From positions 1 through 64,000 of the forward strand of contig NZ_APLF01000009.1 in NCBI RefSeq assembly GCF_000355905.1: 64,000 nucleotides of DNA. The letters are read 5' to 3'. The DNA comes from Psychroflexus gondwanensis ACAM 44. Its GTDB lineage: Bacteria; Bacteroidota; Bacteroidia; Flavobacteriales; Flavobacteriaceae. Below the pieces are notes generated by a model. That model was not told the origin of the DNA, ran no database searches, and saw nothing but the letters and a program-made list of their open reading frames with translations. The position numbers and the translations under genes are program-made. Below are positions 33,614 to 43,429 of this stretch, in pieces; position 1 is the stretch's first letter; the number at the start of each line of letters is the position of its first letter.

Positions 33614-34408
33614 ATGGCCACAATTTTCCAAGTAGACGCGTTTACAGATCAGCTCTTTAAGGGAAACCCTGCGGGGGTTATGCTTCTAGAAAACGGATTT
33701 TTGGAAGAAGATCTCATGCAAAACATCGTTAAGGAAATGAATGTGTCTGAAGTTGCTTTCGTGGTTCCTAGAGAAAAAGAGTTCGATATTCGATTTTTCA
33801 CTCCTAAAGCAGAAGTGCCTCTTTGTGGACATGCAACCTTATCTGCAGCTCATATTCTTTTTGAAACTGGACACGTATCTACCACAGAAACGATTCGCTT
33901 CAACGCGATGAAGGATGTGTTGGAGATTAAATCAATAGGAGGTAAGCTTCAGATGAAGTTTCCAGAGTATGAGCTAAGACCAATTTCCATTCTAACAACT
34001 GACCAAAATCTATTGGATATAAATGTGGAGGAGGCTTTCGAGGTGACCAACGATTGGAAGCTGTTGGTGCTATCCTCGGAGGAAGAGCTTCAAAATTTTG
34101 TTCCTCAAGCCAAGCAACTTCAGGATTTAGGTCTTGGTCAAAGCATATTTACAGCAGTATCCAAAACCCCAGAGAGGGACCTAGTTTGCAGGTGTTTTGT
34201 GCCCGATTTAGGTATTCTGGAAGATCCCGTTACAGGTTCTGCTCACTGTGCTCTTGGAGTATATTGGTCCAAAAAGCTGAACACATCCACTTTGAAATCT
34301 GAACAAATTTCTGAGCGAAAAGGACAATTGCAACTCGAGATGAAGCAGGGCAGTGTCTTTATTTTAGGAGAGGCTAAAACCGTTTTTAAAGCTGAATTTT
34401 ACTTGTAG
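33614..34408 (+). CDS. PhzF-family isomerase/epimerase-like protein
   Basis: 264 aa, the length of the family. It shows IFQVDAFTDQLFKGNPAGV, the conserved Glu in EMNVSEVAFV (about residue 45), FTPKAEVPLCGHATLSAAHI and DPVTGSAHCALGVYW. PhzF is a diaminopimelate-epimerase fold; most homologues outside phenazine clusters have unknown substrates. The last 11 codons (AKTVFKAEFYL) lie in a 35-base sequence that is repeated after the neighbouring TA cassette, so the current 3' end may have been brought in by the cassette. Confidence 0.92.
   Translation: MATIFQVDAFTDQLFKGNPAGVMLLENGFLEEDLMQNIVKEMNVSEVAFVVPREKEFDIRFFTPKAEVPLCGHATLSAAHILFETGHVSTTETIRFNAMKDVLEIKSIGGKLQMKFPEYELRPISILTTDQNLLDINVEEAFEVTNDWKLLVLSSEEELQNFVPQAKQLQDLGLGQSIFTAVSKTPERDLVCRCFVPDLGILEDPVTGSAHCALGVYWSKKLNTSTLKSEQISERKGQLQLEMKQGSVFILGEAKTVFKAEFYL
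34373..34407 (+). repeat. 3' end of phzF-like gene, copy fused to the gene
   Basis: Thirty-five bases that match 35006-35040 at 33 positions. They encode the last residues AKTVFKAEFYL of the PhzF-like protein. With the second copy they bracket the RelBE-like TA cassette (34408-35005). Confidence 0.85.
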
Positions 34409-34452: not shown

Positions 34453-34695
34453 ATGAGCATAGAAACACGAAAAATAGAATTTGTCCAAGAGTTTTTGAAA
34501 CTTCAAAGTGAAAAGTCAATTTCAAAATTTGAAAAAACAGTAAAGACAGAAAACAAACATTCAGCTAATAGAAAAGTTGAATCAATATCAGCTAATGAAT
34601 TAAATGTTCGCATTGATAAATCATTGAAAGATTCAAAAAATGGAAGGTTGACTGAAGTAAACGACCTGTTAACAGAGATTGATAAATGGAGTTGA
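34453..34695 (+). CDS. Probable antitoxin of a RelBE/ParDE-like module
   Basis: A charged, helical 80 aa protein (LNVRIDKSLKDSKNGRLTEV, then NDLLTEIDKWS) with no signal or TM segment. Such proteins precede RelE/ParE toxins in Bacteroidota and bind them through the C-terminal part. The stop overlaps the toxin start by 10 bases. A short palindrome GAATT-CATTA-AATTC (34416-34430) just upstream could serve autoregulation. The family assignment rests on position and composition more than on sequence. Confidence 0.75.
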   Translation: MSIETRKIEFVQEFLKLQSEKSISKFEKTVKTENKHSANRKVESISANELNVRIDKSLKDSKNGRLTEVNDLLTEIDKWS

Positions 34696-35004
34696 AAATA
34701 TTTTGGACCGATTATGCTAAAGCTGAACTCAAAGAAAACTTCAAATACCTAAGAGAAAAATCAGGGTTAAGTGTTGCAAAAAATGAAATCAAAAAAATAG
34801 TTTCGCAAACGTTAAGGTTAAAAAAAACAAGCAGAAATTGGACAAATTGAGCCAATGTTGAAAGAAAGGAATATAGAGTTTCGCTACTTATTACATCAGA
34901 CTTATAAAATAATCTATTGGATAAATATCGAGAAAAATCAAATTGAAATAATGGATGTTTTCGATACTCATCAACACCCTGAAAAGATAAAAAGAATTAA
35001 ATAA
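34686..35004 (+). pseudogene. RelE/ParE-like toxin with a one-base frameshift
   Basis: The frame starts MELKIFWTDYAKAELKENFK, typical of ParE/RelE toxins, and stops after 54 codons at 34848-34850. Removing one A from the run of eight at 34820-34827 restores the rest: LKKQAEIGQIEPMLKERNIE, then FRYLLHQTYKIIYWINIEKN and MDVFDTHQHPEKIKRIK. The restored 105 aa is full length for the family, with the usual VFDTHQHP end. Inactivation of a toxin is a common fate; transcript slippage on A8 could also restore some product. Confidence 0.82.
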
Positions 35005-35005
35005 A

Positions 35006-35040
35006 GCTAAAACCGTTTTTAAAGCTGACCTTTACTTGTA
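35006..35040 (+). repeat. 3' end of phzF-like gene, detached copy after the TA cassette
   Basis: Matches 34373-34407 at 33 of 35 bases and still encodes AKTVFKADLYL plus a TAA stop, without the rest of the gene. The stop of the next minus-strand gene (35032-35034) lies inside it, so this copy probably is the original end of the phzF-like gene, which then converged directly with that gene. Confidence 0.85.
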
Positions 35041-39393: not shown

Positions 39394-40701
39394 ATGGCTT
39401 TAGAAATGAAAGTCCCTTCTCCGGGAGAATCCATTAGCGAAGTTGAAATCGCAGAATGGTTAGTAAAAGATGGAGACTATGTAGAAAAAGATCAAGCTGT
39501 CGCAGAAGTAGATAGCGATAAAGCAACTTTGGAACTTCCAGCAGAAGCCTCAGGAATTATCACCTTCAAAGCCCAAGAAGGCGATGTTGTTCAGGTAGGC
39601 GATGTAGTTTGTTTAATTGATACAGAAGCTGAAAAGCCATCTGGCGGTGACGATAAAAAAGAAGAATCTAAGTCAAAAGATTCTTCTAAAGACTCTTCAG
39701 AAGATAAAAAAGAAGATAATAAAGAAGCCCCTAAAAAAGAAGAAACGTCAAGTTCAAAAGAGGAAACGTCAGCTTCAAAAGAAACTAAAGAGGAAACCTC
39801 TTCTTCTAAAGAGACTTATGCAACAGGAACGCCTTCTCCAGCCGCTAGGAAAACCTTAGACGAAAAGGGAATCGACTCTAAAGATGTGAAAGGGACAGGC
39901 AGAGATGGTAGAATTACCAAAGAGGACGCCGTCAACGCAGAAGCAAAACATTCTATGGGATCTCCAGGTGCTGGAAAACGCAGCGAGACGAGGAGTAAAA
40001 TGTCTATGTTGAGACGAAAGGTAGCGGAGCGTTTGGTAAGTGTTAAAAATGAAACGGCTATGTTAACGACTTTCAACGAAGTCAATATGCAGCCTATTTT
40101 CGATCTTAGAACTCAGTATAAAGAGAAATTTAAAGAAACTCACGGCGTTAGTCTTGGTTTTATGTCTTTCTTCACCCTAGCAGTTGTTCGTGCATTGGAC
40201 AAATTTCCTTCTGTCAATAGTATGGTAGATGGTAAAGAAATGATTACTTACGATTATAAAGATATAAGTGTTGCGGTTTCGGGGCCTAAAGGCTTGATGG
40301 TGCCAGTAATGCGTAATGTCGAAAATCTTGGCTTTAGAGGGGTTGAGCAAGAAGTAAAACGTTTGGCAACTCGCGCTAGAGATGGTAAGATTACGATAGA
40401 TGAAATGACTGGAGGAACCTTTACCATTTCAAATGGAGGTGTTTTTGGGTCTATGTTATCTACTCCGATCATTAATCCTCCGCAAAGTGGGATTTTAGGA
40501 ATGCACAATATTGTAGAGCGCCCAGTCGCTATAGACGGTAAAGTTGAAATACGCCCAGTTATGTACGTTGCTCTATCTTACGATCATAGAATTATTGATG
40601 GCCGTGAATCTGTTGGATTCTTAGTCGCTATTAAAGAGGCTTTAGAAGATCCTAAAGAATTATTGATGAACGGAAATGTAGAAAAAGCATTAGAGCTTTA
40701 A
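39394..40701 (+). CDS. sucB: Dihydrolipoyllysine-residue succinyltransferase (2-oxoglutarate dehydrogenase E2)
   Basis: 435 aa. One lipoyl domain with the modified lysine K43 in [12 protein letters not shown] is followed by a low-complexity Lys/Glu/Ser linker (about 85-145). A peripheral subunit-binding domain ([20 protein letters not shown], then [11 protein letters not shown]) and the catalytic domain follow, with [12 protein letters not shown] and the active-site His in [11 protein letters not shown]. It forms an operon with sucA and ends at a terminator. E3 is not encoded nearby. Confidence 0.96.
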
Positions 40702-40727
40702 TCTATAGATCTTTTTAAATCACTTAC

Positions 40728-40761
40728 AACCCTGAAGTTTTACAAAGCTTCAGGGTTTTTT
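40728..40761 (+). terminator. Rho-independent terminator of sucAB
   Basis: The arms AACCCTGAAG and CTTCAGGGTT form a perfect 10-bp stem around a 10-base loop, followed by a run of T. It lies 26 bases after the sucB stop. Confidence 0.92.
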
Positions 40762-40924
40762 GTTTCTGTTTTAAATTGGATTTGCCCCCTTTAACTTCCG
40801 TGGGTTTCGATACATTTCTTAAGGGTTTTTAGTTGGCTTAGGATATCCAGCTTGGTGAGGAACATTAACTAAAGGTTTTACGTTGAAAAGAGCTGTTTCA
40901 ATTATTGAAGCGGCACTTTTATGT

Positions 40925-41057
40925 TACAAACAAGTTTTACTTTAAATAGAGGCGACTGATTTTTTTAATCGATAACCGCTTTGCCTTTTTAAGAATATCG
41001 ATACCGATGATGCCGTGAACTAGTTCAGCATCATAATTGCTTAAGGCTTTATTGACC
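40925..41057 (-). repeat. Detached, decayed copy of the retropepsin-like gene 3' end
   Basis: About 133 bases clearly homologous to 42161-42293. On the minus strand they read VNKALSNYDAELVHGIIGID and end SRLYLK plus stop, matching the last 39 codons of the gene at 42173-42610. A lost base and a later gained base shift the frame for about nine codons between, so the copy is decaying. It lies on the far side of the Xre-RES cassette. The rest of 40762-41142 holds no gene. Confidence 0.85.
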
Positions 41058-41114
41058 TTTGATAAGTCATTTATAATTGATAGAATCTCTAAAAATCGCA
41101 ATTACAGCAATTTG

Positions 41115-41130
41115 GTTGTATATTTACAAC
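41115..41130 (+). promoter_or_regulatory. Palindromic operator overlapping the Xre-RES promoter
   Basis: GTTGTA-TATT-TACAAC is a perfect inverted repeat, and the -7-like box TATATTTA (41119-41126) lies inside it. It is 12 bases before the antitoxin ATG. Antitoxins of this type repress their own promoter, so this is the likely operator. Confidence 0.6.
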
Positions 41131-41142
41131 AAAACTATTGTA

Positions 41143-41640
41143 ATGAGTGATGTCCTTAAAACAAAGCCTTTCAATACAAAAGTAAGTATTGATAAAGCTA
41201 AGCTGAATAATAAGAATATCCAGAAATGGATTTTAATTGCTGATGGTAAAACTTTTGCCTGGTCAAATAGGTTAGAGAGAGTTCAAGTAATTCGGAAAGG
41301 GATCCCTTACGACTCCATAGGGAGTATTAGTAAGAAAATCAACAGCCCTGTCAAAACAGTTTTAAATATTGTGGGGGTTCCTCAAACTACTTACAACAAG
41401 AAAAAAAGTAATCATTCTTTATTGGATAGCCGGGATAGTGAACTCGTATTAAGGATTTCTGAAGTAATTGATTACGGTATTGATACTTTTAATAATGAGG
41501 ATGAAAAATTTCAAAGATGGCTTCATAAACCAAATCTCTCATTAGGAGGAAGTCCTCCAATTAAATTCTTTGATACGATAAGCGGAATAAACGAAGTGAA
41601 ATTTTGTTTGAGCAGAATAGAATACGGAAACTTTGCTTAA
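41143..41640 (+). CDS. Xre/MbcA/ParS-type antitoxin (DUF2384) of an Xre-RES module
   Basis: 165 aa from ATG 41143; the longer frame from 41077 would start inside the region upstream of the operator. An N-terminal helical Xre-like domain (about 45-95: RVQVIRKGIPYDSIGSISKK, PVKTVLNIVGVPQTTYNKKK) precedes the toxin-binding domain. That shows SELVLRISEVIDYGIDTFNN, then FQRWLHKPNLSLGGSPPIKF and FDTISGINEVKFCLSRIEYG, the usual layout of DUF2384 with the GG(S/K)xP turn. The stop overlaps the RES start (TAATG). Confidence 0.92.
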   Translation: MSDVLKTKPFNTKVSIDKAKLNNKNIQKWILIADGKTFAWSNRLERVQVIRKGIPYDSIGSISKKINSPVKTVLNIVGVPQTTYNKKKSNHSLLDSRDSELVLRISEVIDYGIDTFNNEDEKFQRWLHKPNLSLGGSPPIKFFDTISGINEVKFCLSRIEYGNFA

Positions 41641-42107
41641 TGAAACTCTATCGAATTGAACGAAAAAAATATCTAAAATCGACATTGACAGGGATTGGAG
41701 CTTCGAAATCAAAAGGGTTCAGATGGAATAGTGAAGATACACGATTAATCTACACTGCTGATACAAGAGCCCTTGCCATGTTGGAAGTTTCAGTTCACTT
41801 AGACATAAGTGAAGATTTACCTGATGATAGATATTTTGTTGAAATTGAAATACCAGATGATATCTCTGCACTTGAAGTGAAATTAAAAGATCTACCAGAA
41901 AAATGGGATTCAAAACCCCCATTACTTGTTACACAAATAATTTGTGATGACTTTGTTCTAAATAATGAAGCAGCAATTCTCAAAGTGCCAAGTTGTATAA
42001 TTCCTCAAGAACACAATTATCTAATTAACCCACTTCATCCAGATGCTGAAAAGATCAAAATTATAGGTCAAACATCGTTAAAATTCGATGAAAGATTTAA
42101 AAAATAG
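41640..42107 (+). CDS. RES-domain toxin of an Xre-RES module
   Basis: 155 aa from the ATG that overlaps the antitoxin stop. MKLYRIERKKYLKS, then GFRWNSEDTRLIYTADTRAL, AMLEVSVHLD shows the Arg-Glu-Ser pattern that names the domain. Known RES toxins degrade NAD+ and stop growth until the Xre antitoxin blocks them. The gene looks intact and full length. With the antitoxin it forms a cassette bracketed by copies of the 3' end of the adjacent minus-strand gene. Confidence 0.93.
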   Translation: MKLYRIERKKYLKSTLTGIGASKSKGFRWNSEDTRLIYTADTRALAMLEVSVHLDISEDLPDDRYFVEIEIPDDISALEVKLKDLPEKWDSKPPLLVTQIICDDFVLNNEAAILKVPSCIIPQEHNYLINPLHPDAEKIKIIGQTSLKFDERFKK

Positions 42108-42160
42108 CGACTTATGGTTAAAGCCAATCATCTACTCAGCAAGATCTATTTTACTTCAAA

Positions 42161-42293
42161 TACAAATAACTCTTACTTTAAATAGAGGCGACTGGTTTTA
42201 TAATCGATAACCGCTTTTCCTCTTTTAAGAATATCGGCTCCTATGATGCCGTGAACCAGTTCAGCATCATGATCGCTTAAGGCTTTATTGACG
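42161..42293 (-). repeat. 3' end of the retropepsin-like gene, copy fused to the gene
   Basis: Intact counterpart of 40925-41057. It covers the last 40 codons of the gene at 42173-42610 and 12 bases beyond its stop. The two copies lie in direct orientation and bracket the Xre-RES cassette. Confidence 0.85.
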
Positions 42294-42610
42294 TGAGAGA
42301 GATCGAATAAAATTAAATCGACTTTTTTTTTGGTCCACTTGCCAATGCTTACTTTGTTACTGGTAGACGTTTTGGTAAGCATATTGGTCGCCCCCGCTCC
42401 AGCAGCTTTGATATTACTATCTTCAGAAAATAAATTGAAATGCTCTGCATAAATAAAGTCGATACAAGAACTGGAAGCCCCAGTATCTATGATAAAACTT
42501 CCTTCAACACCGTTGATGAGGACTTTACATTCAAAATGATTAGTTTCAGTAGTATTCATCTTAAGTGCTTTATACTTCTTTTCTAGTAAAAATGATTTTA
42601 AGGAAGACAT
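42173..42610 (-). CDS. Retropepsin-like aspartic protease family protein
   Basis: 145 aa with no signal peptide. The core ECKVLINGVEGSFIIDTGAS (catalytic D-T-G near residue 43) and AELVHGIIGADILKRGKAVI are the two conserved blocks of single-domain aspartyl proteases (retropepsin-like, active as dimers). The second start ATG (codon 18) is possible. The promoter region is shared with the divergent tatD gene. The 3' 39 codons are duplicated beyond the TA cassette. Confidence 0.88.
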   Translation of the reverse strand: MSSLKSFLLEKKYKALKMNTTETNHFECKVLINGVEGSFIIDTGASSSCIDFIYAEHFNLFSEDSNIKAAGAGATNMLTKTSTSNKVSIGKWTKKKVDLILFDLSHVNKALSDHDAELVHGIIGADILKRGKAVIDYKTSRLYLK

Positions 42611-42661
42611 TTATAGAGTTTTCGGCAAATATAAAGTTTCGTTTTAAATAAATTTGCCCTT

Positions 42662-43429
42662 ATGATAATTACAGATACACATACTCATTTATATTCTCAA
42701 GCTTTTGATGAAGACAGAGAAGAAATGATCCAAAGAGCACTAGATAATGAAGTGAAACGGTTTTTTATTCCTGCTATAGATTCAGAAACAACCCAAGCCA
42801 TGTACGATTTGGAACGTCGTTATCCAGAGCAAATGTTTTTGATGATGGGATTGCATCCAACCTCTGTCTCCGAAACCGTGGAAGAGGAGCTAAAGCATGT
42901 GGAGGAACAACTCAAGAAAAGAAAATTTTATGCCATTGGTGAAATTGGTATAGATTTGTATTGGGATAAAAGTTTCTTAGAAGCTCAGAGAAAAGCCTTC
43001 AAGCGTCAAATTCAACTCGCTAAGTCTTATAAACTTCCTATTGTGATTCACTGTAGAGAAGCTTTTGATGAGGTGTTTGAAGTCCTTGAAGAAGAGAAAG
43101 GAAAGGACTTACACGGAATTTTCCATTGCTTTACAGGAACAAAAACGCAAGCCGAACAAGCTATAGGGTACAATATGAAATTAGGAATAGGGGGGGTGTC
43201 GACCTTTAAAAACGGTAAAATAGATCAGTTTTTAAATGAGATTGACTTAAAACATATTGTTCTGGAAACAGATTCGCCTTATTTAGCACCAAAGCCTTAT
43301 AGAGGGAAGCGAAATGAAAGTGCTTATGTGTTGAAAGTTGCGGAGAAATTAGCCGAACTTTACGACTTAAGCCTTGAGGATATTGCCCTACAAACCACAA
43401 AAAACTCAAAGGAGGTCTTCGGAATCTAA
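42662..43429 (+). CDS. TatD-family metal-dependent hydrolase
   Basis: 255 aa, a TIM-barrel nuclease/hydrolase of the YcfH/TatD type. Metal-site signatures DTHTHLYSQAFDEDREEM (N-terminus), GEIGIDLYWDKS (Glu near 95), IVIHCREAF, GIFHCFTGT and LETDSPYLAPKPYRGKRNE are all present. Homologues act as 3'-5' DNA exonucleases or D-aminoacyl-tRNA deacylase-like enzymes; the exact role is open. A perfect -7 box TAAATTTG (42649-42656) ends five bases before the ATG, so the transcript may have little or no leader. The asparaginase gene follows 13 bases later. Confidence 0.93.
   Translation: MIITDTHTHLYSQAFDEDREEMIQRALDNEVKRFFIPAIDSETTQAMYDLERRYPEQMFLMMGLHPTSVSETVEEELKHVEEQLKKRKFYAIGEIGIDLYWDKSFLEAQRKAFKRQIQLAKSYKLPIVIHCREAFDEVFEVLEEEKGKDLHGIFHCFTGTKTQAEQAIGYNMKLGIGGVSTFKNGKIDQFLNEIDLKHIVLETDSPYLAPKPYRGKRNESAYVLKVAEKLAELYDLSLEDIALQTTKNSKEVFGI

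Follow-up and report, generated by a model that had tools for sequence, protein, structure and literature searches.

The window analysed here, 64,000 nucleotides from Psychroflexus gondwanensis ACAM 44 (genome G000, 3.31 Mb in 62 contigs; contig C9), contains a gene for a retropepsin-like aspartyl protease which lies between tatD and sucB and is convergent with sucB. Between the stop codon of this gene and sucB are the genes for a RES toxin and an Xre antitoxin, followed by a second, detached copy of the protease gene's 3′ end (Table 1). Besides the match listed, the protease ORF (42610-42173) has a second Pfam match, to gag-asp_proteas (E = 7.5e-9). The same layout, with other genes, is found behind phzF in the same window.

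Table 1 Features of the retropepsin and phzF loci in the window.
Feature	Coordinates	Strand	Basis or remark
sucB, conserved far-side neighbour; marks the old intergenic gap	39394..40701	+	ORF, relatives
Far copy: detached retropepsin gene 3′ end	40925..41056	-	Repeat alignment; two compensating 1-nt indels
Xre antitoxin, MbcA/ParS toxin-binding C-terminus, 165 aa	41143..41640	+	PF09722 7.5e-10, PF20432 1.1e-5
RES-domain toxin, 155 aa	41640..42107	+	PF08808 E 3e-24
24-nt stretch right behind the present retropepsin stop	42146..42169	-	Matches the usual Psychroflexus gene tail
Near copy: retropepsin gene 3′ end and 12 nt beyond its stop	42161..42292	-	Repeat alignment
Retropepsin-like aspartyl protease gene, intact target	42173..42610	-	145-aa ORF; Pfam Asp_protease_2 E 9.4e-12
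tatD, conserved neighbour upstream of the retropepsin gene	42662..43429	+	Pfam, relatives
phzF, second target gene in the window	33614..34408	+	ORF, Pfam
Near copy of phzF 3′ end	34373..34407	+	Repeat family D4
Antitoxin of the phzF-linked TA	34453..34695	+	71% to P. curvus homologue; no Pfam/PADLOC match
ParE-like toxin remnant, frame interrupted, approximate limits	34699..35004	+	Open P. curvus homologue PF05016
Far copy of phzF 3′ end	35006..35040	+	Followed by sequence that adjoins phzF in G025

The near and far copies of the retropepsin gene end are 88.7% identical over 133 alignment columns (E = 3.6e-44; coordinates converted from survey locus L106), and weaker similarity extends to positions 41078 and 42314. 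The far copy sits within an open frame of 54 codons and carries one 1-nt deletion and one 1-nt insertion, which jointly keep the frame. Repeat alignment and Pfam domains thus bear out the coordinates given in the preliminary description, which had recognized an Xre-RES pair bracketed by two copies of the gene end and compensating indels in the far one.

The antitoxin is made up of Xre_MbcA_ParS_C and Xre-like-HTH domains, with PF09722 above its cut-off, and the start of the toxin gene overlaps the stop of the antitoxin gene, the pair spanning 41143-42107. With both Pfam domains, the antitoxin gene before the toxin gene and overlapping genes, this is a predicted type II toxin-antitoxin (TA) module of the Xre/RES kind. 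Its proteins show nothing unusual, and the interest lies in the flanks. PADLOC returned no match for the Xre, the RES or the phzF-linked antitoxin. In PADLOC the retropepsin-like protein does match a candidate defence family, PDC-M08B (E = 4.5e-9), which we take as general aspartyl-protease similarity. The gene itself appears to be a common companion of sucB and tatD.

By eye, no recombinase is evident among ORFs of at least 60 aa between 30 and 48 kb, in line with the preliminary description, which had noted no integrase, and the ORF list shows no frame of integrase size inside the insert besides the TA pair. A distant search of phage records with 40700-42700 gave no match. Among the RES loci compared, the closest RES protein outside G000 and its nearest relative is 47% identical over the whole protein, and no donor carrying the same gene tail together with the same TA was found.

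The locus was compared with those of related genomes, including P. curvus (G013), P. tropicus (G005), P. montanilacus (G008), P. lacisalsi (G016), P. aurantiacus (G004), P. sediminis (G024), P. longus (G001) and Mesohalobacter halotolerans (G011); further genomes are referred to by label. The retropepsin proteins of the Psychroflexus records are 88-92% identical to that of the window. The nearest genome, G025, is a single contig of 4.32 Mb and 96% identical, and it has the same Xre-RES pair and the same far gene-end copy: its stop-to-stop gap between the retropepsin gene and sucB is 2302 nt, against 1471 nt in the window. Since the layout is present in a genome assembled as one contig, it is no assembly artefact.

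We examined this gap in 65 loci, 57 of which have both genes. In 37 of the 57 it measures at most 330 nt stop to stop (for example 147 nt in P. sediminis and 68 nt in G021); in the other 20 it is longer and the cargo varied. Seven of these 20 contain a gene-end copy: G000, G025, P. curvus, P. tropicus, P. montanilacus and two loci of Mesonia. The P. curvus gap holds an HTH_3 gene (PF01381, antitoxin-like), then a 119-nt far copy (90%), then a DUF5615/DUF433 pair, and in P. montanilacus a DUF5615/DUF433 pair is followed by a 38-nt relic of the gene end (79%). P. tropicus has about 330 nt without recognized TA and then a 107-nt gene-end copy (92.5%). Inspection by eye of the stop-to-stop frames of this insert revealed no TA remnant; the insert may nevertheless be a decayed TA. 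The far copy of P. tropicus, together with its flank, aligns unbroken with the gene end and flank of P. lacisalsi (72% over 383 nt), which indicates that this far copy marks the old gene end. The two Mesonia gaps (L070 and L071) differ in that the sucB end (about 80%) is copied there along with the retropepsin gene (about 70%), in direct order and with unrelated ORFs on both sides, as after tandem duplication or single-crossover insertion.

The stretch right behind the present retropepsin stop in the window is 100% identical over 20 nt to the P. lacisalsi gene tail and 91.7% identical over 24 nt to the tail of the G025 far copy. From these matches we read it as a probable relic of an older retropepsin gene tail. 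The usual Psychroflexus tail also ends the G025 far copy; the near tails of both genomes and the far tail of G000 are different. A tree of the SucB and TatD proteins joins G000 and G025 (support 100), places seven other named Psychroflexus beside them (group support 42) and leaves G021 outside (74). Since G021 too has the unusual tail, the ancestral tail is uncertain.

Comparison of G000 with G025 suggests exchange between the near and far copies of one genome. Six bases distinguish the near copies of G000 and G025 within the 120 nt that end at the stop. At three of them each far copy has its own genome's form; at the remaining three, both far copies have the same base. Within a genome, near and far copies match at 108 of 119 positions (G000) or 104 of 120 (G025), and the two far copies match at 92 of 119. 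We read this pattern as conversion between the window repeats after G000 and G025 split; a similar pattern would result if each lineage had duplicated the gene end on its own. As near and far copies are more alike within a genome than the far copies are between genomes, the origin of the window copies cannot be read from them, and whether by conversion or by separate duplications, their divergence is no clock. The suggestion that the retropepsin event is older than the phzF event, which had been based on the indels, therefore fares unevenly: it agrees with the finding that G025 shares the retropepsin insert and lacks the one at phzF, but P. curvus does share the latter, and copies that look converted date poorly.

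At phzF, as had been proposed, the topology is the same: an antitoxin gene and a ParE-like toxin lie between 35-nt gene-end copies that are 94% identical. G025 provides the empty site, in which phzF is directly followed by the sequence found behind the far copy of the window. A homologous TA lies behind phzF in P. curvus. Its toxin frame, interrupted in the window, is open there, and the 33-nt far copy matches the P. curvus gene end at 33 of 33 nt. The junction between TA and copy is identical in G000 and P. curvus. Because these two genomes are not sisters, the phzF insert either descends from a common ancestor and was lost elsewhere, or moved between lineages, or entered twice at the same spot. 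In P. curvus, TA-type genes occur at the phzF and retropepsin ends in three places within about 9 kb (contig C35; L038 6439-8510, L298).

We surveyed 27 genomes of a genus-level grouping wider than Psychroflexus for RES, ParE, HigB-like and DUF5615 toxins, which gave 14, 104, 15 and 15 matches, respectively. Loci were taken for 114 of these 148 matches (74, plus 40 ParE places in list order, some near contig ends being omitted), and 14 loci shorter than 2900 bases were excluded, leaving 100. A locus was flagged when the toxin was spanned by a direct repeat (30 nt or longer, E of at most 1e-4) of which one copy included the stop of an ORF of 120 aa or more and the other lay beyond the toxin. 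The excess of 3′-end repeats at TA pairs for which the preliminary description had proposed a search is present: 13 of 100 toxin loci were flagged, compared with 1 of 120 non-overlapping random pseudo-loci drawn from 20 random 20-kb stretches (1 of 220 when half-overlapping) and none of 29 acetyltransferase loci from the same genomes (among the matches listed; one further locus was too short). Counting any repeat across the locus, the figures are 36 of 100 for toxins and 2 of 149 for controls (120 random and 29 acetyltransferase).

Inspection removed three flagged loci: L113, in which a 388-nt repeat lies beside a doubtful 124-aa ORF; L149, a repeat-rich place with a doubtful ORF; and L195, in which the repeat is mostly in the 5′ part of the next gene. 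This leaves 10 of 100 toxin loci against 1 of 149 controls (p = 6e-4), or 7 of 97 against 1 of 149 without the three retropepsin loci (p = 0.007), p-values to be read with the loci not all being independent, as L106/L107 and L140/L141 are single events seen in two genomes each and L165/L204 and L171/L173 overlap. The single control match, L176 (565-nt repeat, 94.5%), was kept in the counts. ParE loci from outside this grouping were flagged for 3′ ends in 2 of 27 cases and had any repeat in 9 of 27 (30 listed, 27 long enough); control loci of a transketolase-family gene and its paralogues gave 0 of 29 and 1 of 29. Duplications of 5′ ends were found in 2 of 100 TA loci (L195, L223), 1 of 120 random, 0 of 29 acetyltransferase and 1 of 27 ParE loci outside the grouping.

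One reading of these data is that variable gaps between conserved genes are ordinary hotspots which gather accessory genes and repeats, TA modules merely being common among them. The longer sucB-retropepsin gaps with their varied cargo, the duplications with non-TA or no recognized cargo, and the Mesonia gaps that carry copies of both gene ends all fit such a view. Against it, the 29 acetyltransferase loci are uniformly without flanking repeat; these were not chosen as accessory genes, so the control is incomplete on this point. We consider the hotspot explanation improbable.

The clean cases lie behind unrelated genes. By Pfam, the targets are a glutamine cyclotransferase gene (G010, G014), a transketolase-family gene (G011), a POT transporter gene (G026) and an S15 peptidase gene (G026), and two more are known as ORFs only, a 131-aa frame (G012) and a 314-aa frame (G015). 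Judged by ORFs and toxin match, the inserts measure 0.6-1.4 kb from stop to far copy and contain little but TA genes. At the glutamine cyclotransferase gene, the flank behind the far copy in G010 and G014 directly adjoins the intact gene in G011. The S15 peptidase gene is followed by different cargo in different genomes: a ParE match, a DUF5615 match and a DUF433-like frame between the copies in G026; an AAA_14/DUF4143 ATPase gene between the copies, with a ParE match beyond the copy, in G014 (L390 1482-2606); and a DUF5615 match with TA-like frames in G010, where no detached copy of the gene end was detected.

The arrangement is real and recurrent. The proposal that it reflects a general route by which TA modules insert behind genes holds insofar as it recurs behind unrelated genes, is enriched at TA loci and has empty sites; it needs qualifying in that the cargo is sometimes not a TA, with none recognized in P. 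tropicus and the AAA_14/DUF4143 gene in G014. Such TA-free cargo suggests that the route of entry is not TA-specific. As to the empty sites, for which a duplication already in place had been named as the result that would speak against the proposal, sites free of both insert and duplication were seen at phzF in G025 and at the glutamine cyclotransferase gene in G011, but P. tropicus shows the duplication without a recognized TA, its insert possibly being the decayed TA considered above.

Where the copies end is informative about how they arose. In nine of ten events their similarity ends between -4 and +15 nt from the stop: those at the retropepsin gene (G000, P. curvus and P. tropicus), the glutamine cyclotransferase gene, L197, L204, L214, L226 and phzF. 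The tenth, L116, runs to +48. Against uniform placement this clustering has a combined p of 4e-6, a value that depends on a list of our choosing and on the model, with L204 entered as 0. Outside this count stand the retropepsin gene of G025 at -22 (the same event as in G000), P. montanilacus at +6, the S15 gene of G014 at -12, and the dropped locus L195, 103 nt past a stop. Depending on the event, between about 35 and about 220 nt of the gene are copied, and by eye no junction motif or microhomology could be established.

Similarity ending at the stop is what would be expected of a site-specific element that targets gene 3′ ends and brings a replacement tail, with its recombinase acting in trans or since lost. 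Many integrative elements target gene 3′ ends and carry a replacement tail. Such an element would explain the replaced near tail and the shared phzF junction of G000 and P. curvus. But no recombinase is evident in the region scanned, the far-copy starts of different genes have no common motif by eye, and the copied part varies severalfold in length, and we judge this explanation quite improbable, slightly more so than the hotspot.

The mismatches between near and far copies also bear on their origin. Over 13 pairs, several of which are the same event in two genomes, the mismatches fall 31, 14 and 79 at codon positions 1, 2 and 3. The third-position share of 79 in 124 has p = 8e-6 against an assumed 44%, itself a rough assumption for a dead far copy, and p = 0.001 against 50%. 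It looks as if both copies had been coding while they diverged. The window locus alone, with mismatches of 3, 2 and 5, shows no clear excess. The two copies in G011 have 97% identity in their first 117 nt and 80% in the last 60. When their last 27 nt are compared with the uninterrupted gene end in G026, the far copy is 92.6% identical and the near copy 77.8%; in the 30 nt before these, neither copy is close to G026 (66.7% and 63.3%), and the match to G026 behind the far copy is limited to roughly ten bases at the start and some scattered stretches. Near and far copies of the S15 gene are 80% identical in G014 and 84% in G026, and the near copies there are 86% and 85% identical to the gene in G010. 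On these figures, the S15 copies appear to differ as species do. Other tails are nearly identical, as in L197 (98%) and the glutamine cyclotransferase gene in G010 (97%, last 60 nt).

We propose that imported DNA consisting of a gene tail and cargo recombined in behind the stop codon and was kept by addiction, an account to which we give about an even chance. The incoming DNA would bring an orthologous gene tail followed by the cargo, and could enter through a single homologous exchange within the tail combined with a single illegitimate join at a point farther upstream in the resident gene, or else by integration of a small circle or by template switching. The copy joined to the gene body keeps the target gene whole. 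Where relatives allow the check, the detached copy is followed by the old flanking DNA and so marks where the gene originally ended. Flanked by direct repeats of about 35-200 bp, the cargo would tend to be looped out again, and TA modules may survive this since their loss is punished. Repeats this long should recombine, and the far/near pattern of the window copies suggests that they do; neutral cargo would thus be lost and addictive cargo kept. The best explanation of the window locus is a short foreign insert, a TA with little else, directly behind the stop of a conserved gene.

The main competitor is strict insertion with a long target duplication, in which the resident gene end itself would be duplicated as the TA inserts, by a staggered cut and fill-in or by tandem duplication and then insertion, and the copies would diverge later. 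Several loci suit it well: in P. tropicus, near and far copies are 92.5% alike and no compared species' gene end is closer; the window copies agree at 108 of 119 positions; at phzF, G000 and P. curvus each have a far copy resembling the gene end of the host itself; L116 extends past the stop and L195 spans a gene end and the start of the next gene; and there is a precedent in restriction-modification genes, with duplications on the order of 100 bp (PMC3874152). Against it stand the boundary at the stop, the third-position excess, and the between-species divergence in G011 (in the tail), G014 and G026, and conversion between copies can mimic host typing. The description of the insertion as duplicating the target's 3′ end accordingly stands only in part, with copies at these three loci differing at the level of species in the tail or throughout. 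Overall we consider strict target duplication rather unlikely.

The boundary at the stop, the third-position excess and the divergence in G011 and at the S15 gene fit an imported orthologous tail better than self-duplication. Near-identical tails up to the stop (phzF in P. curvus, L197, G010) are equally explained by self-duplication, and the geometry of L195 and L116 and the lack of a donor among the loci searched also count against import. Self-duplication is possible, at the window locus above all. The mechanism thus lies between import with a tail and plain target duplication, and import is the one that we favour, at roughly even confidence.

A broader form of the import account, which we offer tentatively and hold to be somewhat less probable, is that in this lineage the 3′ ends of core genes carry TA modules as passengers from one related species to another, and would act as general docking sites independent of an integrase. 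DNA of the order gene tail, stop codon, TA would replace the tail of an orthologous gene and push the resident tail downstream, and since the flanking repeats make inserts prone to loop out, mainly addictive cargo would persist. If so, one gene end could serve repeatedly, for different TA families.

Homology-facilitated illegitimate recombination, known from natural transformation, adds foreign DNA by one homologous exchange and one illegitimate join. The entry route which we favour would follow the same scheme, compared in these organisms by its footprint. Among the papers searched, none combines this process with toxin-antitoxin systems.

The preliminary description knew of no standard name for the arrangement. 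One exists, "insertion with long target duplication", used for restriction-modification genes (PMC1643837, PMC4978471): some restriction-modification systems insert with long, variable target duplications on the order of 100 bp, a finding which PMC3874152 credits to Furuta et al. 2010 and Nobusato et al. 2000 (Gene 259:99). As in the passages cited, an addiction-type module without an evident mobile element is flanked by long direct copies of its target. The window insert has direct copies of about 100 bp of target DNA on both sides, and relatives have a single uninterrupted target (37 of 57 retropepsin gaps, phzF in G025, the glutamine cyclotransferase gene in G011). Unlike the restriction-modification insertions, the cargo here is a TA, with an ATPase gene at one locus and nothing recognized at another, the duplicated target is the 3′ end of a gene, bounded close to the stop codon, and copies at three loci look like orthologues from different lineages. 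We therefore file the layout as a variant of, rather than a member of, insertion with long target duplication, the cargo being a TA.

Among the matches listed (titles and abstract starts, with few subscription journals), only one other report came near to duplicated gene ends beside TA modules: in Microcystis aeruginosa PCC 7806, a ParDE-like module lies behind the orthocaspase gene MaOC1 between two identical 152-bp direct repeats, the first starting 14 bp after the MaOC1 stop codon (PMC7935541). This too is a TA behind a gene, fenced by direct repeats, but as described there the repeats are intergenic and hold inverted repeats, and are not a gene 3′ end (PMC7935541).

How horizontally acquired TA systems become fixed was described as not yet understood in a 2009 review (PMC2654758), and the spread of chromosomal TA modules without a mobile element is an open question for which the footprint described here, recurring behind unrelated genes, can be counted in genomes. 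It also makes the addiction idea directly testable: such repeats should loop out neutral cargo and keep addictive cargo.

Two minor observations concern survey loci of other architecture. In L223 (G021), two tandem lipoprotein-like paralogues with 77% DNA identity enclose a TA belonging to the phzF-linked family (66% and 73% identical to its P. curvus counterpart). L134, L149, L151 and L171 are toxin loci amid many diverged direct repeats of about 22-240 nt, and could be integron-like or other cassette arrays.
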